This document shows, one piece after another, positions 29,559 through 49,978 of a DNA stretch of 64,000 nucleotides. Under the pieces are notes generated by a model. That model was not told the origin of the DNA, did no database searches, and saw only the letters and a program-made list of their open reading frames with translations. Numbering within the stretch: position 1 is the first letter of the stretch; every line of letters starts with the position of its first letter. The stretch lies in NCBI RefSeq assembly GCF_000281955.1, contig NZ_AKKF01000130.1, forward strand, positions 1 to 64,000, read 5' to 3'. Source of the stretch: Caulobacter sp. AP07 (GTDB lineage: Bacteria > Pseudomonadota > Alphaproteobacteria > Caulobacterales > Caulobacteraceae). The translations under genes and the position numbers were made by a program.

Positions 29559-29639
29559 CGCTTCGCCTTGTCGGCGTCACATCCCCGTGCCATCACACCG
29601 CTCACAGGGACTGTGCGTAATCTTGAGAACACTTATCCG

Positions 29640-30278
29640 ATGACTTTCGTTCGACGTTTCCTGAATCGTTTAGCGTTGCCGTTGGGTGTCGCCCTGATCG
29701 GCCTTCAGGCCGCTCCGGCGCTGGCCCAGGACGCGATCCCCTTCCCGCCCCCGGCCGCTGCTCCCGCGGCTTCGGCGCCGATGGCCGCCGCATCGGCCGT
29801 TCCCACCACCATCACCGAGCCGGACTACCAGCTCGGCTCCGGCGACAAGGTGCGCGTCACCGTCTATGGCGAGCCCACCCTGTCGGGCGAATTTTTCGTG
29901 ACGGGCAGCGGCCTGGTCTCCTTGCCGCTGGTCGGCGAGGTCAAGGCCGCGGGCCTCAGCGTCGGCCAGTTCCAGGAGGCCGTGCAGAAGGCCCTCAGCG
30001 ACGGCTATCTCAAGGAACCGCGCGTCAGCGCCGAGGTCCTGGGCTTCCGCCCATTCTATATCCTGGGTGAAGTCACCAAGCCCGGCACCTATCCCTATAC
30101 GTCGGGCCTGACCGTGCTCAACGCCGTGGCGACGGCCGGCGGCTACACCTACCGGGCCGACAAGAACAAGGTCTTCATCAAGCGCAACGGCGAGACCTCG
30201 GAGGTGAAGACCGAGCTTTCGCCTTCGACCACCGTGGCGCCGGGCGACACCATTCGCATTGGCGAACGGTTCTTCTAG
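29640..30278 (+). CDS. wza: Wza-type polysaccharide export outer-membrane protein (short form)
   Basis: The 212-residue protein has a signal peptide (MTFVRRFLNRLALPLGVAL, cleavage near ALAQD), a Pro/Ala-rich linker, and the Poly_export domain starting YQLGSGDKVRVTVYGEP. A SLBB-type segment follows (FYILGEVTKPGTYPYTSGLTVLNAVATAGG). It is half the length of E. coli Wza and has no obvious outer-membrane helix at its C-terminus, which ends GERFF. Short forms like this occur in Caulobacter holdfast and capsule loci and may pair with the separate beta-barrel encoded at 20.98 kb. The ATG at 29640 begins the signal peptide. Confidence 0.85.
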   Translation: MTFVRRFLNRLALPLGVALIGLQAAPALAQDAIPFPPPAAAPAASAPMAAASAVPTTITEPDYQLGSGDKVRVTVYGEPTLSGEFFVTGSGLVSLPLVGEVKAAGLSVGQFQEAVQKALSDGYLKEPRVSAEVLGFRPFYILGEVTKPGTYPYTSGLTVLNAVATAGGYTYRADKNKVFIKRNGETSEVKTELSPSTTVAPGDTIRIGERFF

Positions 30279-32481: not shown

Positions 32482-32733
32482 GCGACGGTTGAGCTTGACC
32501 GCCCAAGGCGGCGTTTATCCTTCGCATGGCTAAGTTTGGGCCCTGGGCGATAACGACGCCAAGATGCTCATTTGTGCGAGCGTGCATACGTCTGTGCCGC
32601 AAACTTCGACCGACAGGATTTCTTTTGCGATTGTCACAGGAGAAAGATTGCACTCGGCGGCGGAATGGCGAAATACACGTGATGTTGTTTGTGTCGTCGG
32701 TTTTCGGCGAGCTCGGATCGGAGCGGGGATAGT

Positions 32734-34101
32734 ATGCGTGTAGCGATGATTGGCACGGGCTATGTGGGCCTGGTGTCGGGGGCGTGCTTCGCCGATTTTG
32801 GTCACGTGGTGACCTGTATCGACAAGGATCCGGGCAAGATCGAGCGTCTGGAGAAGGGCGAGATCCCGATCTTCGAGCCCGGCCTTGACGACCTTGTCGC
32901 CCGCAACGTGCGCGAAGGGCGGCTGTCCTTCACCCTGGAAGGCGCCCAAGCCATCAAGGACGCCGACGCGGTGTTCATCGCCGTCGGCACCCCGACCCGG
33001 CGCGGCGACGGCCATGCCGACCTGTCCTACGTCTATGCGGCCGCCGAGGAGATCGCCGGCCTGATCGACGGCTTCACCGTGATCGTCACCAAGTCGACCG
33101 TGCCGGTGGGCACCGGCGACGAGGTCGAGGCGATCATCAAGAGGGCGCGTCCGGACGCCCTGTTCGCGGTGGTCTCCAACCCCGAGTTCCTGCGCGAAGG
33201 CGCGGCGATCGAGGACTTCAAGCGCCCCGACCGCGTGGTGGTCGGCACCGAGGACGAGCGCGCCCAGGCGGTGATGCGCGAACTCTACCGCCCGCTGTCG
33301 CTGAACGAGACGCCGATCGTCTTCACCGGCCGGCGCACCAGCGAGCTGATCAAGTACGCGGCCAACGCCTTCCTGGCGATGAAGATCACCTTCATCAACG
33401 AGATGGCCGACCTGTGCGAAAAGGTCGGGGCCGACGTCCAGCAGGTGGCCCGCGGCATCGGCCTGGACAAGCGGATCGGCAGCAAGTTCCTCAACGCCGG
33501 CCCCGGCTACGGCGGTTCCTGCTTCCCCAAGGACACCATCGCCCTGGTGCGCACCGCCAACGACTACGGCGCGCCGACCCGGCTGATCGAGGCCACGGTG
33601 GCGATCAACGACGCGCGCAAGAAGGCCATGGCCCAGAAGGTGGCCGCGGTGCTCGGTTCGCAAGACCTGGCGGGCAAGACCGTCGGCGTGCTGGGCGTGA
33701 CCTTCAAGCCCAACACCGACGACATGCGCGACGCCCCCAGCCTCGACATCCTGCCGGCCCTGCAGGCCATGGGCGCCAGCGTCCAGGCCTTCGACCCGGA
33801 AGGCGCCAAGGAAGCGGCCCACATGCTGCCCGGCGTCGCGTTCAAGTCCGGTCCCTACGAGGCGGCCGAAGGCGCCGACGTGCTGCTGATCCTCACCGAG
33901 TGGGACCAGTTCCGCGCCCTCGACCTCGACCGCCTGAAGACCTTGCTCAACGCCCCGGTCGTCGTCGACCTGCGCAATGTCTACAAGCCCGCCGAAATGG
34001 TCCGCGCCGGCTTCACCTACGCCTCCATCGGACGCGGGCAGCTGACGGAAACCGTGCCGGCGCCGGCGTCGGCGCCAACCCTCTCCGCCGCCAACGCGTG
34101 A
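32734..34101 (+). CDS. ugd: UDP-glucose 6-dehydrogenase
   Basis: The 455-residue enzyme oxidises UDP-glucose to UDP-glucuronate with two NAD+. Hallmarks are the N-terminal MIGTGYVGLVSGACFADFGH, VGTPTRRGDGHADLSYV, a central FLNAGPGYGGSCFPKDT with the catalytic Cys near residue 261, and FKPNTDDMRDAPS in the C-terminal domain. Start ATG 32734 gives the typical N-terminal dinucleotide-binding strand. It is immediately upstream of the PssD/PssE glucuronosyltransferase pair, so the product is supplied where it is used. The epimerase at 48.9 kb could turn some of it into UDP-galacturonate. Confidence 0.96.
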   Translation: MRVAMIGTGYVGLVSGACFADFGHVVTCIDKDPGKIERLEKGEIPIFEPGLDDLVARNVREGRLSFTLEGAQAIKDADAVFIAVGTPTRRGDGHADLSYVYAAAEEIAGLIDGFTVIVTKSTVPVGTGDEVEAIIKRARPDALFAVVSNPEFLREGAAIEDFKRPDRVVVGTEDERAQAVMRELYRPLSLNETPIVFTGRRTSELIKYAANAFLAMKITFINEMADLCEKVGADVQQVARGIGLDKRIGSKFLNAGPGYGGSCFPKDTIALVRTANDYGAPTRLIEATVAINDARKKAMAQKVAAVLGSQDLAGKTVGVLGVTFKPNTDDMRDAPSLDILPALQAMGASVQAFDPEGAKEAAHMLPGVAFKSGPYEAAEGADVLLILTEWDQFRALDLDRLKTLLNAPVVVDLRNVYKPAEMVRAGFTYASIGRGQLTETVPAPASAPTLSAANA

Positions 34102-35907: not shown

Positions 35908-37422
35908 ATGACCACCGCCAATTCTCAAAACGCCAAGAAGCGCGACGATGGCCTGAAGTCGATCGTATCGCTCACCTGGGTGATGATCGAGAAATTCGGC
36001 ACGGTCGCGATCTCGATCGTGACCTTCTTCGTCTTCGCGAAAGTCCTGGGGCCCGCGGAGTTCGGGATTGGCGTGTTCGCCATGTCCATCGGCCAGTTCC
36101 TGGTGATGGCCTTTACGTCGCTGTTCCAGGATATTCTGGTTCAGAAGAAGGAGATCGACGAGCAGGACAAGAACACCAATTTCTGGTCCTGCGTCGGGAT
36201 CGGCACGATTGGCGCCTTGCTGCTCGTCATCGGCTCCGTGATCTGGGCTCAGTTCGGCGACCCGCGCGTCGCGTGGATGAGCGCATTCGGCGCGATTCAG
36301 ATCCCGCTCACCGCGATCTCACTGACCCACATGGCGCTGTTGCGGCGCGCCGACCAGTTCAAGGTGCTTGCCGGCCGGACCCTGATCGGCCGGGCGCTGG
36401 GCGCCGCCGTCAGCATTGGGATGGTCTACGGCGGCTACGGAGCCTGGAGCCTGGTCGCCCAGCCCGTGGCCATGAGCGCCTTCGCGACCGCGGCCCTCTG
36501 GCTGATGAGCCCTTGGCGGCCAAGGTGGAGCTTCAGCACGCGCCTGATGATGGACCACCTGCGCTTTGGCGCCCCGTTGGCCGTGCGCGGCATGGTGTAC
36601 GACATCTTCACGCGGTCTCTGCCGATCGTCGTCGGGATCTTCGCCGGCCACGCCGCGACCGGCATCGTCACCCTGGCCTGGCGCATCGTCGAGCTGCCGC
36701 GCTCGGCAATCTCGTCCGGCCTGATCGGCTTCTCGCTGCCGCACCTGTCGCGACGCCAGGACAGCCTGGAACAGGTTCAGCGCGCCTATCAGTCCCTGAC
36801 CCGCGCCACCACCCTGATCACCACCGCCATGTTCCTTGGCGAGTTCATCATCGCCGGGCCGCTGATCCGAATCATCTTCGGGCCGGAGTGGGAGTCGGCC
36901 ATTCCCACCACCCAGATCTTCGCCGTCGCCGCCGCCTGGAGCTTCGCCCAGCAATATGCCGGTGTCGGCCTGACCGCCGTGGGGCGTCCGGCCGCCCTGC
37001 TGGCCTTCCATGTGGTCAGCGTCTTCCTGTCGCTGGCCCTGTTCCCCGCCCTGCTGCTGGCGGGCATGGGGCCGATCTCGGCCGGCGTGATTCAGGTGCT
37101 GCGCCTCGCCCTGTGGACCCCCGCCAACTTCTCGATCCTTCGGCGGGTGATGGGCCTTTCGGTGGCCCAGCAGCTCAAGGCCATCACGCCCGCGATCGGC
37201 GCGGGGACGGCGATGGTGGTCGCGGGCGTGACCGCGGAGCATTTTCTGCGGCGCCAACTGAGCGATCCGATCCTGTTGGTCGTGCTGATCGGACTGGGGG
37301 CGCTGGTCTATGCCGGGGTCCTGAGCGTGCTCGATCGCGCCTGGATTTCCGAATTGTCAGGCCTGTTCAAGCGCGGCCGCGCACGAACCGGCGCGCGCGA
37401 TAACGCGAAGGGGGCGCTATGA
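35908..37422 (+). CDS. wzx: Wzx-type oligosaccharide flippase
   Basis: The 504-residue protein has around 14 hydrophobic helices and the polysaccharide-transporter layout of the MOP superfamily: an N-terminal SLTWVMIEKFGTVAISIVTF helix, AKVLGPAEFGIGVFAMS, and paired helices to the end. Such flippases move lipid-linked repeat units across the inner membrane for Wzy polymerisation. The ATG at 35908 is preceded by a short AT-rich stretch. Its stop overlaps the start of the next acyltransferase (ATGA), so membrane transport and acylation are coupled in expression. Confidence 0.85.
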   Translation: MTTANSQNAKKRDDGLKSIVSLTWVMIEKFGTVAISIVTFFVFAKVLGPAEFGIGVFAMSIGQFLVMAFTSLFQDILVQKKEIDEQDKNTNFWSCVGIGTIGALLLVIGSVIWAQFGDPRVAWMSAFGAIQIPLTAISLTHMALLRRADQFKVLAGRTLIGRALGAAVSIGMVYGGYGAWSLVAQPVAMSAFATAALWLMSPWRPRWSFSTRLMMDHLRFGAPLAVRGMVYDIFTRSLPIVVGIFAGHAATGIVTLAWRIVELPRSAISSGLIGFSLPHLSRRQDSLEQVQRAYQSLTRATTLITTAMFLGEFIIAGPLIRIIFGPEWESAIPTTQIFAVAAAWSFAQQYAGVGLTAVGRPAALLAFHVVSVFLSLALFPALLLAGMGPISAGVIQVLRLALWTPANFSILRRVMGLSVAQQLKAITPAIGAGTAMVVAGVTAEHFLRRQLSDPILLVVLIGLGALVYAGVLSVLDRAWISELSGLFKRGRARTGARDNAKGAL

Positions 37423-38438: not shown

Positions 38439-40481
38439 TTAGCGTGTGGCGGCGTCCAGTCCGGGGCCGAGCATCCGTTCCAGCGCGGGCTTGAGGCGGA
38501 TCGCGGCGCCTTCCGAGATATGGTTCGCGTCGCGATAGAGCACATGGTCCTGGCGCATGGCCGGGCAGGTTCCGTCGCCGCAGAACTGGGGCGTCAGATC
38601 CAGGCGCGTGGCATGGGGCAAGTCCGCGACGGCGGCGCCTTCGGCGATGGCAAGATCGGCGTTGGTCGCGACGGAGGCCTTCACGTCGCAGCTGGAGAGC
38701 GGGTGTCCCCGCCTTTGGGCCCGGCCCAGGCACGTGGGGATGTTGAAGCCCGGTCTTGGCGTGTCGGCGATCACCGTCACAGGAATGCCCGCGTCGGAAA
38801 ATCGCTTGAGGACGCGCTTGAGGCCCTGGCCCCAGACGGCGGCGTCGACCATCGCCGCGTCGTCCTTGTCCGGCGCCGTCGGCGATATGACATAGCCCAT
38901 GGCGTGTTCCGACAGGATGACCATGGCGGGGCGGGCGGCCAGGATCTGGTCGATCGCGGCCTTGCGCCACGCGTAGCATTCGGAGAACTCGCGACGCAGC
39001 CGCGTGCTGAACACCGGGACGTCCGCGACGGCGCAAGACGACTTCAGCACGGCCGTCAGTCGCAGGTTCCTTTCGCGCGCCAAGGCTTCCAGCGGCGTGA
39101 ACCATTGCGCGGCGTGGGAGTCCCCGAGCAGCACCACGTTCGGGCCGGTCGCCGTGGTGTTGAAGGCGCAGGTCGTCGGCCGGGTGTGTTCCAGCTTCTG
39201 CATGCAGCTGGGCGTCGAACTGACGAGGGGTGTCTCTTCGGCGGCCCGGACGATCAACCGCTGTTCGGGACGGTTTCCGATCCTGCGGGCGGTGACGTGG
39301 CCGCCGAGGGCGACCAGCGCGCCCGCCAGGCTGATCCCGACGCCCAGGACCAGGCTTGTCCTCGGGCGGGTCATCAGCGAGGGGCTGAGTCTGAGCGGGC
39401 GCTCGATCAGTCTCAAGCTGGCCGTCGCGAGGGCCAGGGTCAGCGCGCCGCAGGCGAGGCGTTCCCACCCGGTGAGTTCGGGCTTCAGGATCTGGGCGAA
39501 GACGATGATCGGCCAGTGCCAGAGATACAGGGCGTAGGAGCGCTTGCCGAGGAACTGCGCGATGGGAGAGGAGAGCAAGCCCAGGGCGCGGCCGTCCGAA
39601 GCGCCGCCGGCCGCGAGCAGGGCCGCCGTGGCGAACACGGGAAGCAGGGCGCTCCAGCTCGGAAACGTGTTCCGCTCGCTCATGACGACGATACAGGCCG
39701 CCAGCACGGCCAGCCCCGTCCAGGCCAGGATCCGCGCCGGGATCGGTCGCCGCAGGATTCCGGGCAGCGGGACCAGGAAGGCCAGGGCTCCAATGCCGAA
39801 TTCCCAGGCGCGGGTCGGCGAGGCATAGAAGGCGACCGGGGGCCAGACGCCGACGACGATGATGCAGGCGACGAAGGAGGCCAGAGTGAAGGCCGCGATC
39901 AGCCAGGGCAGGTTGCGAACGCGGAACAGGCTGGCCCCGACCTGCAGCAACAGGGGCCAGACGAAATAGAACTGCTCCTCCACCGCCAGGGACCAGGTGT
40001 GCAGGAAGGGGTTCAGCGCGCTCTCGGGCGCGAAATAGTCGAATCTCTGGAAGAGGAGCCAGATGTTGCTGGCGTAGAGCGACGCCGCCGCGGCGCCCTG
40101 GGTGACGTGATCCTGTTCGGCCGGCGCCAGGATCAGCGCGCCGGTCGCCAGGGTGGCCACCAGGACGACGAAGGCGATGGGCAGGAGGCGGCGGGCTCTC
40201 CTGGCGTAGAATTGCAGGAAGTCGATCCGTCCCGTGCGCGAGATCTCGTCGGTCAGCAGTCCGGTGATCAGATAGCCCGAGATCACGAAGAAGACGTCCA
40301 CGCCCAGGAAGCCGCCTGGCAGGCCCGGAACGCCGAAATGGAAGGCGATCACGGCGCCGACGGCGAGCGCGCGCAGCCCTTCGATGTCCGCTCTGAAACC
40401 GAAGCGCTTCGAGGCGGGCTCGCTCGAAGTCTCGCCGGCGGTGACCGGGGAAATCGCGGCGCTGTCGAGGGCTCGATACAT
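38439..40481 (-). CDS. OafA-type acyltransferase fused to an SGNH domain
   Basis: The 680-residue protein has two parts. Residues ~30-380 form an acyltransferase-3 membrane domain starting RADIEGLRALAVGAVIAFH, with GVDVFFVISGYLITGLL and FYARRARRLLPIAF. Residues ~430-680 form a periplasmic SGNH domain with GDSHAAQWF near residue 454 and DANHIS near residue 652. In characterised AT3-SGNH proteins the membrane part brings the acyl group across and the SGNH part places it on the sugar. It is the only leftward gene in this part of the cassette and has a long upstream non-coding region. Confidence 0.88.
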   Translation of the reverse strand: MYRALDSAAISPVTAGETSSEPASKRFGFRADIEGLRALAVGAVIAFHFGVPGLPGGFLGVDVFFVISGYLITGLLTDEISRTGRIDFLQFYARRARRLLPIAFVVLVATLATGALILAPAEQDHVTQGAAAASLYASNIWLLFQRFDYFAPESALNPFLHTWSLAVEEQFYFVWPLLLQVGASLFRVRNLPWLIAAFTLASFVACIIVVGVWPPVAFYASPTRAWEFGIGALAFLVPLPGILRRPIPARILAWTGLAVLAACIVVMSERNTFPSWSALLPVFATAALLAAGGASDGRALGLLSSPIAQFLGKRSYALYLWHWPIIVFAQILKPELTGWERLACGALTLALATASLRLIERPLRLSPSLMTRPRTSLVLGVGISLAGALVALGGHVTARRIGNRPEQRLIVRAAEETPLVSSTPSCMQKLEHTRPTTCAFNTTATGPNVVLLGDSHAAQWFTPLEALARERNLRLTAVLKSSCAVADVPVFSTRLRREFSECYAWRKAAIDQILAARPAMVILSEHAMGYVISPTAPDKDDAAMVDAAVWGQGLKRVLKRFSDAGIPVTVIADTPRPGFNIPTCLGRAQRRGHPLSSCDVKASVATNADLAIAEGAAVADLPHATRLDLTPQFCGDGTCPAMRQDHVLYRDANHISEGAAIRLKPALERMLGPGLDAATR

Positions 40482-41088: not shown

Positions 41089-42429
41089 ATGACGGCTGGT
41101 TCCCAAGACTACGGCGCTCAAGTCGATATCCGCCGGGCCCGCGCCCAGGGCGCCCACGCCCACTATCGCGGGCGCACCGAGGTGTATGTCCGGCGTCTGC
41201 TGACCGTGATCCTGTACCTGGCGCTCTGGCGCGCCACGGGCATGTGGTACGGCTACCCCTCGCGGTTCCTCGAGGGCGTGAGCGTCGATCCCACCGCCCA
41301 GAAGGTGATGCTCTACAGCCTGATTCCGCTGCTTGGGCTGTATGTGCTGTTCGAGCCTCGGCGGTTCTTCGGCTATTTCACGCGCATGCCGCTGATGGCG
41401 GCGGGGGTGATCGCCGCCTGCCTCGCCTCGCTGGTCGTTTCCATTGACCTGGGCGCGTCCCTGCGCGGCATCATGGCCGTGGCGATCCTCACCGCGGCGC
41501 CGCTTCTGTACCGGTTGCGCTATGGCGGGGCGGAGACCTTCCGCGCGTTGGCGAATTTCGCGATCGTCTCCGCGTTCGCCAACATCCTCTATACCGTGGC
41601 GTTTCCGCAGTTCGCCGTCATGGGCGGCTCCTATGCCGGTGACGTGAAGGGCCTGTTCTATCACAAGAACGGTCTGGGCCAGTTCAGCGCGGTCGGGTTC
41701 CTGATCCTGTTTTCCGGCTCTGGGCTGTATCGGAAGCTCGACAAGCGCGAGATCCTGCGAAAATGCGCCCTGGTGCTTTCCCTGCTGCTGGTGGTGATCG
41801 CCCATTCCTCGACGGCGATCGTCATGGTGTTCACCGGAGTCGCGCTGCTGTTTGGACTGCGCATGCTGCAGAAGATCGGCGACTCGTTGCTGCGCTCGAT
41901 CATCGTGCTGACACTTTGTATCGTCGTCGGCGTACTGGGATCCTACGTCTATCTCACCGTCGCGGAAGCTATCGCGAGCGCCTTTGGTAAAGACCTTACC
42001 TTTTCGGGGCGCTCGGATATCTGGAATCAGCTGATTCCGCTGATCTATGATCGCCCGTTGCTGGGATATGGCTTCGCGACGTTCAGGCAATCCTACATCA
42101 TCGATCAGTATGTTCATCTGGGACACGGTGTTCTGTCCATCCACAACACCTATATCGAGCTGTGCCTGAATATCGGCGTTCCGGCGACGATCACCTGGTG
42201 CGTCTACCTGATCGGCACGGTCTTCCAGAAGATCGGCATGGTCCAAAGGGAGCCGCTTCTGCAGGAAGCCCAGGCCAAGGACATCGTGATCATCCTGTTG
42301 ATCATGATCGGCTCGATGACCGAAGCCGGATTGATGCTGGCCCCGGTCATTCTCTGGCCGTTCCTGGCCGCCGCCTTGCCTTCGGATCGGCCACGGACCC
42401 CATCGGTCGTCGCGGCGCGACCGAGGTGA
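41089..42429 (+). CDS. wzy: Wzy/ExoQ-like polysaccharide polymerase
   Basis: The 446-residue membrane protein has about 11 helices and the O-antigen polymerase/ligase core. The conserved elements are FYHKNGLGQFSAVGFLILF in mid-sequence, LTFSGRSDIWNQLIPLIYDRPLLGYGF, a strong match to the ExoQ-type FTGRTxIW loop, and SIHNTYIELCLNIG with the conserved His. It probably polymerises the lipid-linked repeat exported by the flippase at 35.9 kb. It heads the rightward group of glycosyltransferases. The start at 41089 gives a hydrophilic 25-residue tail before the first helix. Confidence 0.85.
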   Translation: MTAGSQDYGAQVDIRRARAQGAHAHYRGRTEVYVRRLLTVILYLALWRATGMWYGYPSRFLEGVSVDPTAQKVMLYSLIPLLGLYVLFEPRRFFGYFTRMPLMAAGVIAACLASLVVSIDLGASLRGIMAVAILTAAPLLYRLRYGGAETFRALANFAIVSAFANILYTVAFPQFAVMGGSYAGDVKGLFYHKNGLGQFSAVGFLILFSGSGLYRKLDKREILRKCALVLSLLLVVIAHSSTAIVMVFTGVALLFGLRMLQKIGDSLLRSIIVLTLCIVVGVLGSYVYLTVAEAIASAFGKDLTFSGRSDIWNQLIPLIYDRPLLGYGFATFRQSYIIDQYVHLGHGVLSIHNTYIELCLNIGVPATITWCVYLIGTVFQKIGMVQREPLLQEAQAKDIVIILLIMIGSMTEAGLMLAPVILWPFLAAALPSDRPRTPSVVAARPR

Positions 42430-42536: not shown

Positions 42537-43733
42537 ATGGTTGACCCGACGACAGATCATGCGGCGGCTCCGCGGGAGAGCGAGGATCGGGTCACGATCT
42601 TCGTGGATCGGTTTCTGCCTCCGAGCCAGGCCTTCGTCATTCAGCAGGCCAGCGCCCTTGTCCGCCATCGGCCGGAGTTCCTCACCTTCGGCCGTACCGG
42701 CTCGCGCCTGTCGGGGGTCGGTGACTATCCGGTGCGCAATCTGCGGGATTCCCGGCTGGGCCAGGCCGCCGGCCTTCTCCTGAAGGCGCCGCGGCTGGCG
42801 CCGGCGGCGCTCTGGTCGGGGGTGAGCGGCACGCGGCTGCTGCACGCGCACTTCGGCAAGAACGGCTACATCCTCGGGCCGCTGGCGCGCACCTTGAACG
42901 TGCCGCTGGTGACGACCTTCCACGGCTTCGACGCCACCTACGCCGGTGATCCGGCCACGCCCGGCGGCTTCAACCAGACCCGCTTCTTCCGGACCGGCCG
43001 GGCGGCCATGGCCAGCGGGAAGGGCTTTTCGATCGCCGTGTCGGGGTTCATCCGTGAACGGCTGCTGGCCATGGGTTTCGACGAACGACGCATCTTTCAG
43101 CACTATATCGGCATAGACACCAAGTTGTTCGCACCTCAGCCCCAAGTCGTGCGGCGCAAGGCCCGCGTGGTTTCGGTGGCCCGTTTTGTCGAATACAAAG
43201 GCCATCGCTACATCATCGACGCCCTGGCCAAGGTCGCGGCGGCGGGCGTGCCAGTCGAGTTGGTGATGATCGGCCAAGGGCCGCTTCGCGACGAGATCGA
43301 GCAGTTGGCGCGCAGGAGGCTGCCGGATGTCGTCCTCATGGAGAACCTCAGCCAGCAGGAAATCCGTGACGTGGTGTCCAGCGCCAGGGTCTATGTGCAC
43401 GGCAGCGTCACCCTGGAAAACGGCCACGCCGAAGCCATGGGGCTCGCCAATCTCGAAGCCCTGGGCGTCGGCACGCCGGTGGTGGCCTTTGACTCCGGCG
43501 GCGTGGGCGAGGCCATGCGCCCCGGGGTGACAGGTTTCACCGTGCCCGAGCGCGACACCGACGCCATGGCCGACGCCATCGGCCGCCTGCTGACCGACGA
43601 CGACCTGTGGGCCGCGTCCAGTCAGGCCGCCACGGCGTTCGTGGCGGAGAATTTCGACATCCAAGTGCAGTCTCGGTTGCTTGAGGATTACTACGATGCG
43701 GTCGTCGCGCGGTTCAACGCCGAATCCAAGTGA
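42537..43733 (+). CDS. Glycosyltransferase family 4 protein
   Basis: The 398-residue protein is a GT-B retaining glycosyltransferase of the WcaL/AmsK type. The N-terminal domain contains RLLHAHFGKNGYILGPLAR and TTFHGFDATY; the C-terminal domain contains VVSVARFVEYKGHRYIIDAL, MIGQGPLRDEIEQL, and the donor-binding EX7E-type stretch EAMGLANLEALGVGTPVVA. It adds a sugar to the lipid-linked repeat unit in the cytoplasm. A 107-bp gap after wzy holds only a 32-codon frame. The following acetyltransferase starts 21 bases after the stop, so an operon is likely. Confidence 0.86.
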   Translation: MVDPTTDHAAAPRESEDRVTIFVDRFLPPSQAFVIQQASALVRHRPEFLTFGRTGSRLSGVGDYPVRNLRDSRLGQAAGLLLKAPRLAPAALWSGVSGTRLLHAHFGKNGYILGPLARTLNVPLVTTFHGFDATYAGDPATPGGFNQTRFFRTGRAAMASGKGFSIAVSGFIRERLLAMGFDERRIFQHYIGIDTKLFAPQPQVVRRKARVVSVARFVEYKGHRYIIDALAKVAAAGVPVELVMIGQGPLRDEIEQLARRRLPDVVLMENLSQQEIRDVVSSARVYVHGSVTLENGHAEAMGLANLEALGVGTPVVAFDSGGVGEAMRPGVTGFTVPERDTDAMADAIGRLLTDDDLWAASSQAATAFVAENFDIQVQSRLLEDYYDAVVARFNAESK

Positions 43734-43754: not shown

Positions 43755-44279
43755 ATGAAGAGTTTGAACAAATTCCAATGGCTTCGGAAGTCATTCGTCA
43801 AGCTGAGGTGGCTGTACTACACGAAGGTGTGGGGCATGGATATTCATCCGCTGGCGACGTTCTCGACGTCGGCGCGACTGGATATGACCTTCCCGCGTGG
43901 AATACATATCGGTGAAGAGACCTATATCGCGTTCGACGCGGCGATCCTGACGCACGACCTGACGCGGGGCCTCTATCTGCACACCCGGATCGGCAAGCGG
44001 TGCTTCATCGGCGGCCGCTCGATCATCCTGCCGGGCGTCGAGATCGGTGACGAATGCGTCATCGGTTCGGGCAGCGTCGTGACCAAGAACGTGCCGCCCC
44101 GCTCGCTGGTGGCGGGCAATCCGGCGCGGGTCATCCGGGAGAACATCGAGATCATCAGCCGCTATGGCCGGATGAAGACGCCGCGCGACGTCGCCGCCGC
44201 GGCGGAGGCCGAGGCCGCGCTGTCGGAGGCGTCCGAGGCCGCGACGCAGGACCCTGTCCCCGCCGAGGCCCACAAATGA
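43755..44279 (+). CDS. Left-handed beta-helix (hexapeptide) acetyltransferase
   Basis: The 174-residue protein belongs to the WcaF/NodL-like group of trimeric acyl-CoA-dependent O-acetyltransferases. The hexapeptide repeats run from about residue 50 (IHIGEETYIAFDAAI) to VEIGDECVIGSGSVVTKNVP, followed by the typical capping segment SLVAGNPARVIREN. The last 35 residues are Ala/Glu-rich and unusual for the family. It probably acetylates the sugar precursor in the cytoplasm, unlike the three membrane acyltransferases in this locus. Its stop overlaps the next gene's start (ATGA). Confidence 0.85.
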   Translation: MKSLNKFQWLRKSFVKLRWLYYTKVWGMDIHPLATFSTSARLDMTFPRGIHIGEETYIAFDAAILTHDLTRGLYLHTRIGKRCFIGGRSIILPGVEIGDECVIGSGSVVTKNVPPRSLVAGNPARVIRENIEIISRYGRMKTPRDVAAAAEAEAALSEASEAATQDPVPAEAHK

Positions 44280-45202
44280 GCGCCGCCCAGCCTGTGCACG
44301 TGGCCGTGACCGTCATCACCTACAAGCGGCCGGACGGACTGAAGCGGTTGCTCGATGCGCTGGAGGCGCAGGAGCGGCCCGAGGATCTGCCGTTCCGGCT
44401 CTCGGTGGTGGTGGTCGACAACGACGAGAACGAGGGCGGGCGCGGGGTGGCCGAGGCCTATCTGAACTCGCCAAGGCTTGATGTCCGGTATTTCGTCGAG
44501 CGCCGGCGGGGCATTCCCGTCGCCCGCAACACCGCGCTCGACAACGTTCCGGAGGACGCCGACGCCTTCTGCCTGGTCGACGACGACGAGTGGCCGGTTC
44601 TCGACTGGATCGCCAGCCTTCTGCGCAAGTGGGACAACGGTCGCGTCGACTGTGTCTACGGACCCGTCGAGCCGGTCTATCCCGAGGATCCGCCAGCCTG
44701 GTTCATCAAGAGCCGGGTGTTCGAGCGCAAGCGGTTCGCCGACGGCGCGCCGATCGGCCACGCGGCCTCGAACAACGCCATGGTCTCGACGGCCTTCATC
44801 CGCCGGACCGGGCTGCGCTTCGACGAGCGCATGCGGTTCACGGGAGGCTCCGACTACCGGTTCTTCAAGCAGGGCCGCAAGCAGGGCATGACCATCATCT
44901 GGTCGGCCGCCAGCCTGGTCTATGACGAGGTGCCGGCCAACCGGTTGACCTGGAAGTGGATTCTGCAACGCCAGTATCGCCTGGGAAACACCTTCGCCGT
45001 CGATGCGCGCCTGGAGGGCGATCGCGGTCAGTCGCTGCGCCTGTTCGCCTATGGCGTGGCGCGTGTCGGGTTCGGCGTCGTGAGCCTGCCGATGGCGCTG
45101 CTGGGTCCCTTCCACGCGATGCGGGCCATGATCCACATCCTGCGCGGCTCGGGAACGGTGTTCGGCCTGGTGGGGCACCGGCATGAGGAATACGCGCCCT
45201 AG
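44276..45202 (+). CDS. Glycosyltransferase family 2 protein
   Basis: The 308-residue protein has the GT-A fold: VAVTVITYKRPDGLKRLLDAL at the start, VVVVDNDEN for nucleotide binding, RRGIPVARNTALDN, and FCLVDDDEWP as the DxD metal motif near residue 103. Acceptor-side residues include GGSDYRFFKQG. A hydrophobic C-terminal stretch (residues ~262-290) may tie it to the membrane. The ATG at 44276 overlaps the previous stop and sets the start. Donor sugar and linkage cannot be predicted from sequence. Confidence 0.86.
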   Translation: MSAAQPVHVAVTVITYKRPDGLKRLLDALEAQERPEDLPFRLSVVVVDNDENEGGRGVAEAYLNSPRLDVRYFVERRRGIPVARNTALDNVPEDADAFCLVDDDEWPVLDWIASLLRKWDNGRVDCVYGPVEPVYPEDPPAWFIKSRVFERKRFADGAPIGHAASNNAMVSTAFIRRTGLRFDERMRFTGGSDYRFFKQGRKQGMTIIWSAASLVYDEVPANRLTWKWILQRQYRLGNTFAVDARLEGDRGQSLRLFAYGVARVGFGVVSLPMALLGPFHAMRAMIHILRGSGTVFGLVGHRHEEYAP

Positions 45203-45276: not shown

Positions 45277-46188
45277 ATGTCCAGTCCGATCCCCGAAGCG
45301 ACGATCATCGTCACCGTCCACAACTACGTCGACTGCGTGGCCGCGGCGATCGACAGCGCCCTGGCGCAGACGCCGCCGTGCCAGGTCATCGTCATCGACG
45401 ACGGCTCGACCGATGGCTCGACCGAGGTGGTGCAGGCCTATGCCGACCGTTGCGAAGTGGTGATCAAGCCGAACGGCGGCCAGGCTTCGGCCTTCAACGA
45501 GGGCTTCCGGCGTAGCCGGGGGCGCTACGTCTTCTTCCTCGACGCCGACGACCTGTTCCTGCCGGGCAAGGTCGAACGGGTGCTGCGGCTCTATGGCGAG
45601 CACGCCGTGGGCTGGGCGCACCATGCCATGTCGCTGGCCGGTCCCGACCTGACGCCCCAGGCGGGCGACGCGCGCAATCCCGCCAACCTGCGCAGCGGCG
45701 TCTACGACCTGCGCGAGGCGGCCAGGACGGGCCGGTTCCCCGTCAAGCTGCCGGCGACCAGCGGCCTGTCCTTCGACCGGGAATGCCTGGCGCGGATCAT
45801 GCCGATGCCTGAAGCGCCGGGCATCATGATGAACGAGTCGTACCTGAAGTTCGGCTGCTGGGCCCTGGCGCCGGGCTATCTGCTGGACGAGCCGCTGGGT
45901 GTGCAGGTCGTGCACGGGGGCAACCTCTTCACCGGCCGCGGGGCGCCGGTCAAGGTCCAGAGCTATGCCTATCTGGGGCGCGAGCTGTACGCGAACATCC
46001 CGGGGGCCCGGGGGCTGGCGGTTCGCTTCGCCGAGGTCGCCGCCAGTGATCCCAAGGCCCTGTCGGCCAGCAGCGGCGCGCAGGCGATGCTGGGGCAGTT
46101 CCGAAACGGCCTGACGACGGGCGAGCGGGCGATGTTCACGCTCCGCACCGCCCTCAAGAGGCTCCGGCGGGCCGCGACGGCCGGCTGA
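45277..46188 (+). CDS. Glycosyltransferase family 2 protein
   Basis: The 303-residue protein opens ATIIVTVHNYVDCVAAAIDSAL, then VIVIDDGSTDGSTEVV and YVFFLDADDLFLPGK, the nucleotide-binding and DxD motifs of family 2 inverting glycosyltransferases. GGQASAFNEGF lies between them as usual. The C-terminal 60 residues are Ala/Arg-rich and helical. It is the last rightward gene of the glycosyltransferase group and converges with the tailspike-like gene 22 bases away. It lies 74 bases after the preceding family 2 gene and probably belongs to the same transcript. Confidence 0.86.
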   Translation: MSSPIPEATIIVTVHNYVDCVAAAIDSALAQTPPCQVIVIDDGSTDGSTEVVQAYADRCEVVIKPNGGQASAFNEGFRRSRGRYVFFLDADDLFLPGKVERVLRLYGEHAVGWAHHAMSLAGPDLTPQAGDARNPANLRSGVYDLREAARTGRFPVKLPATSGLSFDRECLARIMPMPEAPGIMMNESYLKFGCWALAPGYLLDEPLGVQVVHGGNLFTGRGAPVKVQSYAYLGRELYANIPGARGLAVRFAEVAASDPKALSASSGAQAMLGQFRNGLTTGERAMFTLRTALKRLRRAATAG

Positions 46189-46210: not shown

Positions 46211-48541
46211 TCACGACGGTGGTGTAATGAGGGCGGTGTACTTGCCGCCCGCGGGCGCGACCTTGCTGAGAATCTGCATGTTCGTCTTGCAGTCCTCGAA
46301 GGTGAGGCCGCTGAAATCGCCGCTGGTCGGGCGATCGATGCGCAGGCCCACGTCGCAGCCCTGCACGACGACGTTGCGGGTGACGATGTCGAAGTGGTTG
46401 GGACCCGTGTCGATCGAACCCGCCGAACTCGAGGACGCGACCCCTCTCGTGCAGTTCTCGATCCGGACGTCTTCGTAGAGGTGGGTTCGCTGGTCGGACG
46501 TCGATGACGCGCCGATCCCCCAGCTGTAGGTGTTCATCCGGGCGCCCCGGCAAACGCCGCGCCGGACGGTCACGTTGTCGCCGAGGAGGGAGATGACGAA
46601 GTTCAATCCCGTGAGGTCGAAATCCTCGATCAGCAAGCTGGTGGATTGCACCGTGATCGCCCCCTTGCCGCTGTTCGTCGGCTGAAGCTGCATCGACATG
46701 ACCGGGTGACGAATGATCACCTCCTCGCAAGCGGTCGCCTGGAAGCAGTCGGCGGCGACGCCTTGCGGCGTGCCATAGTCGGCCGCCTCGTCGATCAACT
46801 GCCCCTTCACCGCTTCGGCGAAGACGCAATCGCCGACGACGTCGCGGATCCGGACCATGCCGAGATAGGCGTTGCTCGTGCGCCGAATGGCGATGCCGGC
46901 CCTGTTGGTTTCCGGTTGGCCCGCGGCGATGTTCTGAACATCGACCCGAACGATCTGCCATCCGCCGCAACCATTCGTCGGACCGCCGTCGACATTGATC
47001 CCGCGGATCGTCGCCCCGCTGAGCATGAGGTCTTGCAGGCGAACGGCCGAAGCGTTGTTGTCGTCGACGGCGTATTCCACGCCTTCACCAAGCCTGGGCT
47101 TGGCGCCTTCGCCATAGGCCCCGTAGGTGCAGTTGCTCTTGGGAAGCAGGCCGCCGGGCCAGACACCGCCGCGCTTCAGCATCACGACCGCGCCCGCTGG
47201 GATGGACTCGTGGTGCGCCATCGCCAAGCTCGCCCAGGCCGTCTCCGGAGTCTTGCCGTCGGCCGCGTCGTCGCCGGCGGGATCGATGTAGCGATGGACT
47301 TCGCTGGCCGCGCAGTCGAAGGCCGGGACCGTGTTGGCCGCGAGGGCGGCCTGGCCGAGAAAGCCGCCGATCAGCAGGCGTCGTAGCCAGAAGGTCCCGC
47401 CGGATTTGCGGCCGTTCCCGGAATGGCCGAGGATCAGGCGGTCGAGGGTCTCGGGCGGGGCGGAGAAGGGGTCGTAAGCGAGGGCGCCGCCGAAGGCGAG
47501 GATGCGCCCCTGGGGACGAAGGGCGAGGGCCGCCTTGATCGATCCCGGGCCGACGCAGTTGGGGACGCGGGGGCGCAGCACGGCGTGGGTCATGGTGGCC
47601 GAAAGCGCATTGTCCTGAGTGCGGCATATCGCGGCCTCGCCGCCGCCACGGGACGACGCGACGCGCACCAGCGGCGTGAACTGGCCGTCGGCCGCGTCCA
47701 TCTGGGCGTCGAGTTCCAGGGTGAGCGGCAGGCGGAGCTGGTCGCCCAGATCGTCGATCACCAGGCGGTCGGCCGATCGGCGCGTGGGCGCGCCTCGCGT
47801 GCATATGGGGCTGGTGATCGTGGGCAGGTTCTGCAGGTCCATGAGAATGAACAGGACGTCCGCGCCGGGCCGCGCGACCACGGCGAGGCGGGATTCCCTC
47901 GAGGCGGGCGTGAGGTTGGAGCGCTGAACCCGTCGCCAGGCCTCGTTGTCGAAGGCGACGCCGGAGGCGGAGCCGGTGAGCCGCAATGCGCCGCTTCCGC
48001 TCAGGCAGCGGACATAGGCGGCGATGGCGTGTTCGCGCACGGCCCCGATGGAACCCGGGATGACGGCCATGGCCTCCTCGTCGGGATGGGTGTTCCGCAG
48101 CCGGTAGACCTTGCCGTTCATCACCCGCGCCGTGAGCAGGTCGTGGAAGATCGGCGCGTTTGACCGCGCGTCACGCGCGTGGTGCAGGGCTTCGTGGTCG
48201 TCGATGATCTCCAGCGCGCCGCCGGTCACCTCGAAATCCTGGAGGTTCGCGGGCCTGACATTGTCGGCGGCTATCCGATTGGTCGCGGCCGGCTCGAGCA
48301 GCAGCCCCGCCCCGGGGACGATGCGCGGAGCGCCCGCGGGGAAAAGCGCGAGCCGGCCGCTCGGGCTCAGGGCGACACCGCCGCCGCCGGTCCAGTCCGC
48401 CTGGGGGAAGTCCTCGATCGCGACGTTGCGCACCACAGCGCGAAGGTTACCGCCCGTCCAGTCGAATGAGGCCCGGTTTCCGGAACGCGGTGCGTCGCCA
48501 ACCTTCAGTATTGGAATCGAATTTTCAACAACATTGCGCAT
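46211..48541 (-). CDS. Tailspike-like protein: lectin-like N-terminal part and right-handed beta-helix
   Basis: The 776-residue protein has no signal peptide. Residues ~1-250 resemble phage head-spike-fibre modules (GAGLLLEPAATNR near residue 80). Residues ~255-410 look like a laminin-G/concanavalin lectin domain ending in a LDRLILG...FWLRRLLIGGF pattern. Residues ~415-776 start HRYIDPAGDDAADGKTPETAW, the usual opening of parallel beta-helix polysaccharide lyases and depolymerases, with repeating NVTVRRGVCRGARMN-type coils. The start ATG has the ribosome site AAGGA nine bases upstream. It may bind or cut this locus's own polymer. Catalytic residues cannot be assigned by eye. Confidence 0.65.
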   Translation of the reverse strand: MRNVVENSIPILKVGDAPRSGNRASFDWTGGNLRAVVRNVAIEDFPQADWTGGGGVALSPSGRLALFPAGAPRIVPGAGLLLEPAATNRIAADNVRPANLQDFEVTGGALEIIDDHEALHHARDARSNAPIFHDLLTARVMNGKVYRLRNTHPDEEAMAVIPGSIGAVREHAIAAYVRCLSGSGALRLTGSASGVAFDNEAWRRVQRSNLTPASRESRLAVVARPGADVLFILMDLQNLPTITSPICTRGAPTRRSADRLVIDDLGDQLRLPLTLELDAQMDAADGQFTPLVRVASSRGGGEAAICRTQDNALSATMTHAVLRPRVPNCVGPGSIKAALALRPQGRILAFGGALAYDPFSAPPETLDRLILGHSGNGRKSGGTFWLRRLLIGGFLGQAALAANTVPAFDCAASEVHRYIDPAGDDAADGKTPETAWASLAMAHHESIPAGAVVMLKRGGVWPGGLLPKSNCTYGAYGEGAKPRLGEGVEYAVDDNNASAVRLQDLMLSGATIRGINVDGGPTNGCGGWQIVRVDVQNIAAGQPETNRAGIAIRRTSNAYLGMVRIRDVVGDCVFAEAVKGQLIDEAADYGTPQGVAADCFQATACEEVIIRHPVMSMQLQPTNSGKGAITVQSTSLLIEDFDLTGLNFVISLLGDNVTVRRGVCRGARMNTYSWGIGASSTSDQRTHLYEDVRIENCTRGVASSSSAGSIDTGPNHFDIVTRNVVVQGCDVGLRIDRPTSGDFSGLTFEDCKTNMQILSKVAPAGGKYTALITPPS

Positions 48542-48910
48542 ATGACAGTTCCTTGCGGTCGTCTTGTGCTGTTGTTTGGTTATACAATTGGGATGTCGAT
48601 GAATAGAGAAACTTAAAGCTTAAGCTTAGAAGGTGGCGACATTTGAATCATTATCGTCCGACGATGACGTAAAAACTGTCATTTTTGGGCGATATACGGC
48701 GAACTGATCCGATGAGAGCCGTCCGGCGGATTGCGAAATGTCCGGTAGGGGCGCCGTCCGAGCAGGGCTTGCCGCCGATGGCGGTCGCGCCGACGTCCTG
48801 AATCTGGCGAACGTCTCCGTTCCCGACCCCGATGGAATCGCGCGGGACGCGCCAAGGCGCTGTCTCCGGACCTTGGCGAGCAGGTTGTCTCGGGGATCAG
48901 CGAGGCCTGT
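48542..48910 (-). promoter_or_regulatory. AT-rich upstream region of the tailspike-like gene
   Basis: The 369 bases between the epimerase (3' end side) and the tailspike-like gene carry no gene. The part next to the tailspike-like start is AT-rich and contains the 12-base palindrome AAGCTTAAGCTT at 48616-48627 and ATCGTC-C-GACGAT at 48653-48665. These are candidate operator sites for this leftward gene. The remaining part toward the epimerase stop is GC-rich and featureless. Confidence 0.4.
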
Positions 48911-49891
48911 CTAGGGGTAGAAGGAGCGATACCACTCGGTGAAACGCTCCAGGCCCTGGGCGAGCTTGACCTTGGGCCGGTAGCCGGTGAGGGCGTGCAG
49001 CTTGGAGATGTCGGCATAGGTGGCCGTGACGTCGCCGGGCTGCATCGGGCGCATGACCTTGACCGCCTCGCGGCCCAGGGCCGTTTCCAGGGTCGAGATC
49101 ATCTCCATCAGCCCGACGGGGTCGTTGTCGCCGATGTTGTAGATCTCGTGCCCGCCCGCGGCCGGCGGGTGGTCGAGCACCCCGACGACGCCGTCGACGA
49201 TGTCGTCGATATAGGTGAAGTCGCGGGCCATCCGGCCCTGGCCGTAGACCTCGATCGGCTGGCCGGCGAGGATCTTCTGGGTGAAGCTGAAATAGGCCAT
49301 GTCCGGCCGGCCCCACGGCCCATAGACCGTGAAGAACCGCAGGCCCGACATCGGGAAGCCGTAGAGCTTGGCGTAGCTGATGCTCATCAGCTCGTTGGCC
49401 CGCTTGGTGGCCGCGTACAGCGACACCGGCTCGTCGACCGGATCGGTTTCCTTGAAGCCCGCGCCGTGATCGCCGTCGAGCGACTGGAGACGGTCGCCAT
49501 AGACCGAGCTGGACGAGGCGTAGACCAGGTGCGCGACGCCGTTGCGCCGGGCGGCCTCCAGCACCGACAGGTGGCCGGCCAGGTTCGAGCGCTCATAGGC
49601 GAAGGGGTTGTCGATCGAGTAGCGCACGCCGGCCTGGGCGGCCACGTGGACGATCCGCTTGGCGCCGCTGTCGCGGACCAGCGCCTCGAACGCCGCGCCG
49701 TCGGCGATGTCCATGCGGACCATGGTGAAGCCCGGACGGGCCTCCAGCCGCGCCGCCCGCGCCGCCTTCAGCGCCGGATCATAGTAGTCGGTGAAGACGT
49801 CGACCCCGATGACGGTCTCGCCTCGGTCGAGAAGGCGGTGAGCGACATGGGCTCCGATGAAGCCGGCGGCGCCGGTGATGATAACGGTCAT
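48911..49891 (-). CDS. UDP-glucuronate 4-epimerase (NAD-dependent epimerase family)
   Basis: The 326-residue SDR-type enzyme shows ITGAAGFIGAHVAHRLL at the N-terminus, VHVAAQAGVRYSIDNPFAY, which is characteristic of the glucuronate epimerase subgroup, YASSSSVYG, and the catalytic YAATKRANE. FTVYGPWGRPDMAYFSFT and ARDFTYIDDIV complete the subgroup pattern. It would convert UDP-glucuronate from Ugd into UDP-galacturonate, giving the polymer a second uronic acid. The ATG at 49891 begins the dinucleotide strand; an upstream in-frame ATG (49969) adds 26 Arg-rich residues and was rejected. Confidence 0.88.
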   Translation of the reverse strand: MTVIITGAAGFIGAHVAHRLLDRGETVIGVDVFTDYYDPALKAARAARLEARPGFTMVRMDIADGAAFEALVRDSGAKRIVHVAAQAGVRYSIDNPFAYERSNLAGHLSVLEAARRNGVAHLVYASSSSVYGDRLQSLDGDHGAGFKETDPVDEPVSLYAATKRANELMSISYAKLYGFPMSGLRFFTVYGPWGRPDMAYFSFTQKILAGQPIEVYGQGRMARDFTYIDDIVDGVVGVLDHPPAAGGHEIYNIGDNDPVGLMEMISTLETALGREAVKVMRPMQPGDVTATYADISKLHALTGYRPKVKLAQGLERFTEWYRSFYP

Positions 49892-49978
49892 GGTCCGCCG
49901 TCTGTACCTCCGACGCTCGGCCGCGTCCAATGCTGGCATAGGCCGGGCCAGCGAGGATGCACGCGGCAAGCGGGGTGA

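Follow-up and report, generated by a model that had tools for sequence, protein, structure and literature searches.

A tailspike-like enzyme is encoded in the stewartan cluster of Pantoea stewartii. As described in the accessible part of the report on it, WceF carries a twin-arginine translocation (Tat) signal, forms a tailspike-like trimer and cleaves stewartan to repeat units, and its mutants make a larger polymer; the authors call acquisition during coevolution with phages a tempting speculation, the likeness being structural (PMC7949094). Excerpted reports describe two further systems: RbmB of Vibrio cholerae, a beta-helix polysaccharide lyase of the rbm biofilm cluster that acts on the cell's own polysaccharide VPS (PMC11637428), and TspA of the Rhodobacter capsulatus gene transfer agent (GTA), in which a beta-sandwich engaged in matrix-sugar recognition is joined to a beta-helix and which degrades the producer's own biofilm (PMC13420450). 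Here we describe a gene of Caulobacter sp. AP07 within a stretch of 64,000 nucleotides (the window), almost the whole of a contig of 64.4 kb; the genome measures 5.6 Mb. The gene lies at the end of a Wzx/Wzy exopolysaccharide or capsule cluster, as indicated by a domain search of its neighbours, and its product combines a phage-spike-like N-terminal half with a C-terminal beta-helix; near-full-length homologues of 40-41% identity are present in four other genomes of the genus. It probably encodes a phage-related depolymerase kept by the host, assembled from phage-type parts and acting on the exopolysaccharide of its own cluster. Given the WceF precedent, this kind of system is already known; new here is that the phage lineage can be named, that a phage-type gene adjoins the helix gene in one strain, that the gene goes with a single Wzy type and that the window copy has no leader. 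No published Caulobacter enzyme of this kind was met in the literature searched, whose coverage left out most subscription journals.

So far as the available text describes WceF, the two proteins share a tailspike-like beta-helix, a place in an exopolysaccharide cluster with wzc, a similar length (736 residues for WceF) and an N-terminal part that resembles a phage structural domain. The Tat leader of WceF is also found in the four Caulobacter relatives, whereas the window copy is leaderless. The head of WceF is like that of the P22 tailspike, while that of the window protein resembles a prophage or GTA-spike-like module; in addition, WceF has more domains after its helix, whereas the window protein ends with the helix. 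RbmB aligned with the window helix at Z 24.8, with 6% identity in the structural alignment, and its crystal chains (348-366 residues) have no spike-like half in those rows. For WceF the likeness to phage proteins is structural only, whereas here the sequence itself identifies a related lineage of phages.

The gene is a single open frame on the minus strand, 776 codons long, with its ATG at 48541 and its stop codon at 46211-46213; this agrees with the sequence-only reading that preceded our analysis, which had predicted a 776-residue protein at 46211-48541 without stating its strand. A plus-strand reading of 46211-48541 was ruled out by stops in frame. The beta-helix predicted earlier was recovered in the C-terminal half of an AlphaFold2 model, reliably from about residue 500: ten-residue block means of the predicted local distance difference test (pLDDT) were 51-89 over residues 501-760 and 24-42 over residues 401-500. 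In a structural comparison with the PDB, 278-326 residues were aligned to beta-helix proteins at Z 22-27 and a root mean square deviation (rmsd) of 2.7-4.9 among the best 50 rows. The matches begin at about residue 412 and include AlgE epimerases, the tailspikes of Sf6, HK620 and Pam1, a PL6 lyase, RbmB and a GH87 glucanase; rows within 1 Z unit of each other were counted as tied. WceF, the P22 tailspike and TspA lie outside these 50 rows, from which nothing is concluded. For the whole model, Foldseek found no PDB chain with an E of 0.001 or lower, and the rows listed, headed by a galacturonidase (E 1.4e-3) and consisting mostly of sigma-1 receptor or cupin-like chains, were set aside as noise from a poor model. 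In BFVD, the rows ranked second and fourth among the four strongest are named, both as Rhizobium phage proteins, and the others are nameless; this match is not independent, because the alignment behind the model included two phage helices.

The kinship of the helix to phage proteins was established at the sequence level. Residues 421-772 of the window protein matched positions 601-969 of the 1207-position profile phrog_36166, a Rhizobium phage polysaccharidase type, with E 1.4e-20. As the match covers the helix part and not the whole profile, only the helix is called homologous and the whole protein is left outside the family. In the collections searched, helix matches outside Caulobacter came from 54 of 50,697 phage records, all of them Rhizobium phages, and from four Rhizobium plasmid records, and these phage and plasmid relatives share 23-32% identity with the window protein. 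The phage polysaccharidases differ in what surrounds the helix: I4 and I46 have about 600 N-terminal residues of no significant similarity and continue for about 160-240 residues beyond the match, and N38, TM30, Y1_11 and Y5A have about 290-300 residues before it, whereas the bacterial helix proteins carry the spike-like half in place of the phage N-terminus and end with the helix. A sequence search of the PDB with the window protein returned nothing up to E 10, and the helix profile returned three matches, none named WceF (the presence of a WceF entry was unchecked); these three (E 2e-4 to 0.45; lacto-N-biosidase at 1e-3) were left unused, since they cover parts of the helix only. The pectate-lyase-like family PF12708 scored 13 bits (E 0.09), below its gathering cut-off of 27 bits. 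Among the plasmids, a Rhizobium bangladeshense record encodes a helix protein of 1205 residues and is similar in length to some phages. The plasmid of Rhizobium sp. NXC14, typed as conjugative, encodes one of 496 residues with the same invariant residues (L035:11989-13479); two acyltransferase genes lie about 9-11 kb from it, and no exopolysaccharide cluster is evident among its listed genes. Plasmid matches from Azospirillum, Paenarthrobacter, Curtobacterium and Streptomyces were set aside, as they cover only about 105-130 residues around the helix start.

We then compared sixteen helices, namely the five Caulobacter proteins, nine phage records out of the 54 and two of the four Rhizobium plasmid matches. 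Fifteen columns were invariant, among them the polar residues D425, D571, D598, Q601, K626, S673, D736 and R737 (16/16), all eight of which are kept in the window protein and shared with the Rhizobium phage polysaccharidases. The spacings between D571, D598 and K626 are close to one helix turn, or one turn plus a loop, which may fit a groove running along the helix. A nucleotide-sugar dehydrogenase encoded in the cluster makes a uronic acid likely in the polymer. Together with this enzyme, the invariant Asp-Asp-Lys would fit a uronic-acid hydrolase or a uronic-acid lyase, and we choose neither.

Two rivals of the depolymerase reading concern what the helix does. The helix could bind the polymer without cutting it, and so cross-link or anchor the coat as a lectin or matrix protein, which we consider improbable. 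The carbohydrate-binding-module (CBM)-like fold of the N-terminal half would suit such a role, the beta-helix surface adhesin PfbA is among the structural matches (Z 23.5), and WceF, in the accessible part of its report, is a slow-cutting enzyme that agglutinates with its polymer (PMC7949094); a purely structural helix, however, would presumably have no need of the eight invariant polar residues. It is less probable still that the protein modifies the polymer without cutting it, as an AlgE-type epimerase would by working on uronic acids in the completed chain. The mannuronan C-5 epimerases AlgE6 and AlgE4 do fill the first three structural rows (Z 26.5-26.7), and the dehydrogenase gene agrees with this, but tailspikes and the PL6 lyase follow within about 1 Z unit, so that the order means little, and the sequence kin are mostly phage proteins, whose usual need would be cutting.

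The link to one Wzy and glycosyltransferase set is the second line of evidence for a host-kept depolymerase. The earlier placing of the gene among glycosyltransferase and epimerase genes held, and Wzx and Wzy genes are there too; the plus-strand neighbours before the helix gene include two Wzy_C proteins, three glycosyltransferases, a hexapeptide transferase and acyltransferases. With the window genome, the helix gene was found in 5 of 75 genomes of the genus, and in 5 of 299 of a family sample that includes the genus. The clusters of the four relatives hold counterparts of the window Wzy, glycosyltransferases and hexapeptide transferase in a different gene order. In the genus searches, the five genomes that carry the helix gene are exactly those with a Wzy of at least 43% identity (43-45% in the relatives), the next best reaching 27% (10/75 over threshold); the same five are exactly those with a family 2 glycosyltransferase of at least 53% (53-55% in the relatives), the next best reaching 36% (12/75 over threshold). 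In the relatives the helix and Wzy genes share a strand, whereas in the window they lie on opposite strands. The clear cluster counterparts are 38-73% identical and Wzx 22-24%, against 91% for the left-side dehydrogenase in one relative (G003), so the cluster itself is divergent. This contrast between flank and cluster, together with the rearranged order, gives window 22284-50476 what appears to be a pattern of capsule-type exchange. A FadB-like gene on the right flank had no match in the relatives' stretches compared. Scans of the collections of genomes and viral contigs with the single sequence gave no relatives. An alignment query recovered three of the Caulobacter relatives from the genome collection; in viral_contigs, the whole-protein alignment found nothing and each of two helix queries found one locus. 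In class-wide samples, the helix profile at E 1e-6 matched 1 of 289 genomes, the window's own, and the full profile at E 1e-10 matched 2 of 385, the second in the spike half only.

The third line of evidence is a phage-type gene beside the helix gene of one relative. In strain T5M6 (G071), a gene for an SGNH esterase-like protein starts 144 bases downstream of the helix gene (L008:12504-14564); it matches phrog_8480 (E 2e-73) and has no evident leader in the listed frame. Its phage matches comprised 70 records, all of Rhizobium phages. After removal of 17 RefSeq duplicates (NC_) from the 54 phage records with the helix, and with 60 of the 70 esterase records listed, 22 of the remaining 37 had an esterase match no more than 4 kb away in the same orientation, in 18 of the 22 downstream as in T5M6; many of the 22 are near-copies, and the gap was measured between matched stretches rather than genes. 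Of the rest, six have the esterase more than 20 kb off by record numbering and nine are not among the esterase records listed. In annotated phage examples the two genes are adjacent, or a small gene, another gene or a second SGNH gene lies between them. Since the T5M6 pair mirrors the phage pair, phage ancestry is likely. A shared origin of the pair would be the simplest explanation and favours transfer from phage to host, although the two genes may have been captured independently or have moved from host to phage. A search of the genus found the esterase in 4 of 75 genomes, G071 and three others (one over 73 residues only), and not in the window genome, G003 or G009. Caulobacter zeae has a 39% relative of the T5M6 esterase on another contig (L061, G074:C29:80949-82775), beside a phage-like-looking frame.

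The N-terminal half may also derive from a phage-type part. Residues 62-377 match P0010, a stand-alone Caulobacter prophage tail protein (G072), with 29% identity and E 2e-23. P0010 itself matches the phage tail family phrog_5939 (E 1e-21), and its locus is prophage-like, with a J-type tail fibre, a distal tail protein, an endolysin and an integrase; phrog_5939 also matches the C. zeae orthologue of the window protein (E 3e-4). The model NF048003 (GTA_spike_fiber) scored 23.4 bits (E 7e-5) against this orthologue, P0002, and 12.4 bits (E 0.17) against the window protein, both below its curated cut-off of 36 bits. The window protein is thus related to the head spike fibre domain of NF048003, as judged by sequence, without being filed under it, and the head-spike-like N-terminus proposed by the sequence-only reading stands on the P0010 match. 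Residues ~89-245 were modelled like carbohydrate-binding modules (porphyran-binding CBM, CBM29) at Z 8-10, the best row having Z 9.9 over 114 residues with rmsd 2.9 (aligned residues ~93-243); most such rows are at about Z 8 or lower, a level that may reflect merely a common arrangement. The laminin-G-like domain proposed for the following segment fared less well: similarity to P0010 extends over it, but a Pfam search of the window protein gave no LamG match, and residues 236-410 fall below pLDDT 50, a stretch that stayed unsettled when the N-terminal half was modelled separately. With a threshold of E 0.001, the spike domain was found in 11 of the genus's 75 genomes; one match exceeded the cut-off and four were the helix orthologues. 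Of the seven remaining loci, the one in G072 was taken further. In another family of the class (G537, L020:79-2247), a similar spike-like N-terminal half is fused to a SASA carbohydrate esterase domain, and the gene adjoins one for an MBOAT O-acyltransferase; here the binding module seems to have been reused with a different polymer-modifying enzyme.

How the protein would leave the cell appears to differ between the window species and its relatives. All four relatives carry RR(E/D)ILK at residue 7 and, after it, a hydrophobic segment with 15-residue Kyte-Doolittle maxima of 1.4-1.8, which we take to be a Tat-type leader. The window protein was correctly predicted to have no signal peptide, and an earlier start was rejected, as the 26 further upstream codons hold no leader either. 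The proposal of a non-Sec export route thus suits the relatives, in which Tat would carry the folded protein to the periplasm or out of the cell. The leaderless protein of the window species may be exported along a different path, such as on a particle, or not at all; it may act once lysis has freed it, or may be in the course of being lost. In the mechanism that we propose, the head-spike-like carbohydrate-binding module would hold the polymer and the beta-helix of the phage depolymerase lineage would cut it; such trimming would set chain length or loosen the matrix, a role like that of WceF towards stewartan in Pantoea.

Several observations weigh against this interpretation. The mean pLDDT of the whole model is 50.6, with 427 of 776 residues below 50, including residues 412-498, and no Pfam family exceeds its cut-off in the window protein. 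The twin-arginine motif is missing from this copy, whose 15-residue Kyte-Doolittle maximum is 0.56. The window protein also departs from the other helices at position 630 (Thr; Val in 14/16), 679 (Ser; Gly in 15/16) and 716 (His; Arg in 15/16). Among the four relatives, any two helix proteins share 88-96% identity, so that co-occurrence with Wzy rests on about two lineages rather than five. In the helix tree the five Caulobacter proteins group together (100/99) beside I4, I46 and their kin (85/83); as the tree is unrooted and the phage join falls under the mark for a firm branch, it does not give the direction of transfer (long-branch warnings concerned two other rows). Nevertheless, the retention of all eight polar residues, the phage kinship of the helix and the Wzy linkage make a depolymerase probable. 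The domesticated phage depolymerase of the sequence-only reading is the best-supported interpretation, through the helix kinship, the linkage to one Wzy and glycosyltransferase set and the phage-type neighbour gene; cutting is what we infer from these. If correct, the locus would allow one to test whether a bacterium has retained a phage-type depolymerase for use on its own polymer. The substrate of the enzyme would be predictable, being the coat that the adjoining cluster produces, and one could ask whether loss of the Tat leader alters the enzyme's job.

Since the window protein is leaderless, it could instead be a GTA or prophage spike encoded in the capsule locus, carried on a particle, freed by lysis and opening the capsule of kin, like TspA. 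Its spike-like N-terminal half and the gene's own AT-rich upstream region agree with this, as do a GTA tail-protein marker in the genome (GTA_TIM, E 3e-140; G000:C170:5859-6749) and the TspA trimer, which in the available text likewise has an N-terminal beta-sandwich and a beta-helix (PMC13420450). We nevertheless think this unlikely. The Tat-type leader of four orthologues would be needless for a virion part, the N-terminal 600 residues of I4 and I46 show no significant similarity (window E 1.6, C. zeae E 0.26), and the GTA marker also occurs in the C. vibrioides control, whereas the helix gene is in 5 of 75 genomes and tied to one Wzy. TspA is moreover a part of the GTA particle that, according to the excerpted report, is absent from Caulobacterales (PMC13420450); it is likened to the window protein by description, not by sequence. 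A dying copy, recently separated from its function and unused, is very unlikely, since the 776 codons are open without an inner stop, the invariant polar residues are intact and the AT-rich upstream region is present, even though the leader is missing, the gene lies on the opposite strand to Wzy and positions 630, 679 and 716 have changed. There is, finally, a very slim chance that the depolymerase was acquired from phages in a two-gene cassette (helix and SGNH esterase) and that the leaderless window protein, freed by lysis together with the GTA, opens the capsule of kin with the same Wzy; capsule type and DNA uptake would then be inherited as one unit.

The upstream DNA had been read as an AT-rich promoter of the gene's own with palindromes. 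Its AT-richness was confirmed (40-44% GC over about 150 bases, against 62-75% around it) and one 12-base palindrome was found, but no match to a sigma-70-type promoter consensus was present in the DNA upstream of the gene. The palindrome motif had one match in 64 kb and none in 100 shuffles; it was picked post hoc, once the sequence had been read. In the four relatives the last 100 bases upstream of the gene have 40-54% GC, so that a promoter is possible there too. The features are collected in Table 1.

Table 1. Features of the helix gene and of the surrounding cluster (positions in the window)
Feature	Position	Strand	Basis or remark
Wzc-like chain-length determinant / kinase	22284..24500	+	Wzz, GNVR and AAA_31 domains
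Wza-like polysaccharide export protein	29568..30278	+	Poly_export, SLBB
Nucleotide-sugar dehydrogenase, probably UDP-glucose	32722..34098	+	TIGR03026 above cut-off; 91% identity in G003
Wzx-like flippase	35908..37422	+	Polysacc_synt_3
Acyltransferase fused to SGNH domain	38439..40481	-	Acyl_transf_3 + SGNH
Wzy-like polymerase	41089..42429	+	Wzy_C; counterpart of at least 43% identity only in helix-gene genomes
Glycosyltransferase family 4	42537..43733	+	domain match; 57-58% identity in four relatives
Hexapeptide acyltransferase	43755..44279	+	domain match
Glycosyltransferase family 2	44276..45202	+	domain match; co-occurs with helix gene
Glycosyltransferase family 2, convergent with helix gene	45277..46188	+	domain match
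Depolymerase-like gene	46211..48541	-	776 codons, ATG start to stop
Right-handed beta-helix, residues 412-776	46214..47308	-	phrog_36166 kinship; model; 412-500 poorly modelled
Asp736-Arg737 in conserved DRPx(S/T)G turn	46331..46336	-	helix alignment
Lys626, invariant; past Asp598 by 28 (Caulobacter), 26-40 (all)	46664..46666	-	helix alignment
Gln601, invariant	46739..46741	-	helix alignment
Asp598, invariant; 26-30 residues past Asp571	46748..46750	-	helix alignment
Asp571, invariant 16/16	46829..46831	-	helix alignment
Second module, putative, residues 258-395; laminin-G-like in the sequence-only reading	47357..47770	-	P0010 similarity
Head-spike / carbohydrate-binding-module-like beta-sandwich, residues 62-250	47792..48358	-	P0010 similarity, CBM-like fold
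Residues 1-53, no Tat leader; four orthologues have one	48383..48541	-	N-terminal comparison
AT-rich stretch, probable promoter region, without consensus match	48542..48700	-	GC content
12-base palindrome within AT-rich upstream stretch	48616..48627		motif search
NAD-dependent sugar epimerase/dehydratase, upstream of helix gene, same strand	48911..49894	-	domain match

The acyltransferase-SGNH fusion at 38439-40481 lies on the minus strand within an otherwise mostly plus-strand cluster; its protein has no match in the G071 stretches and has one before the helix gene in three relatives. On the other side of the helix gene, the frames beyond the sugar epimerase gene presumably belong to fatty-acid metabolism, which they resemble.

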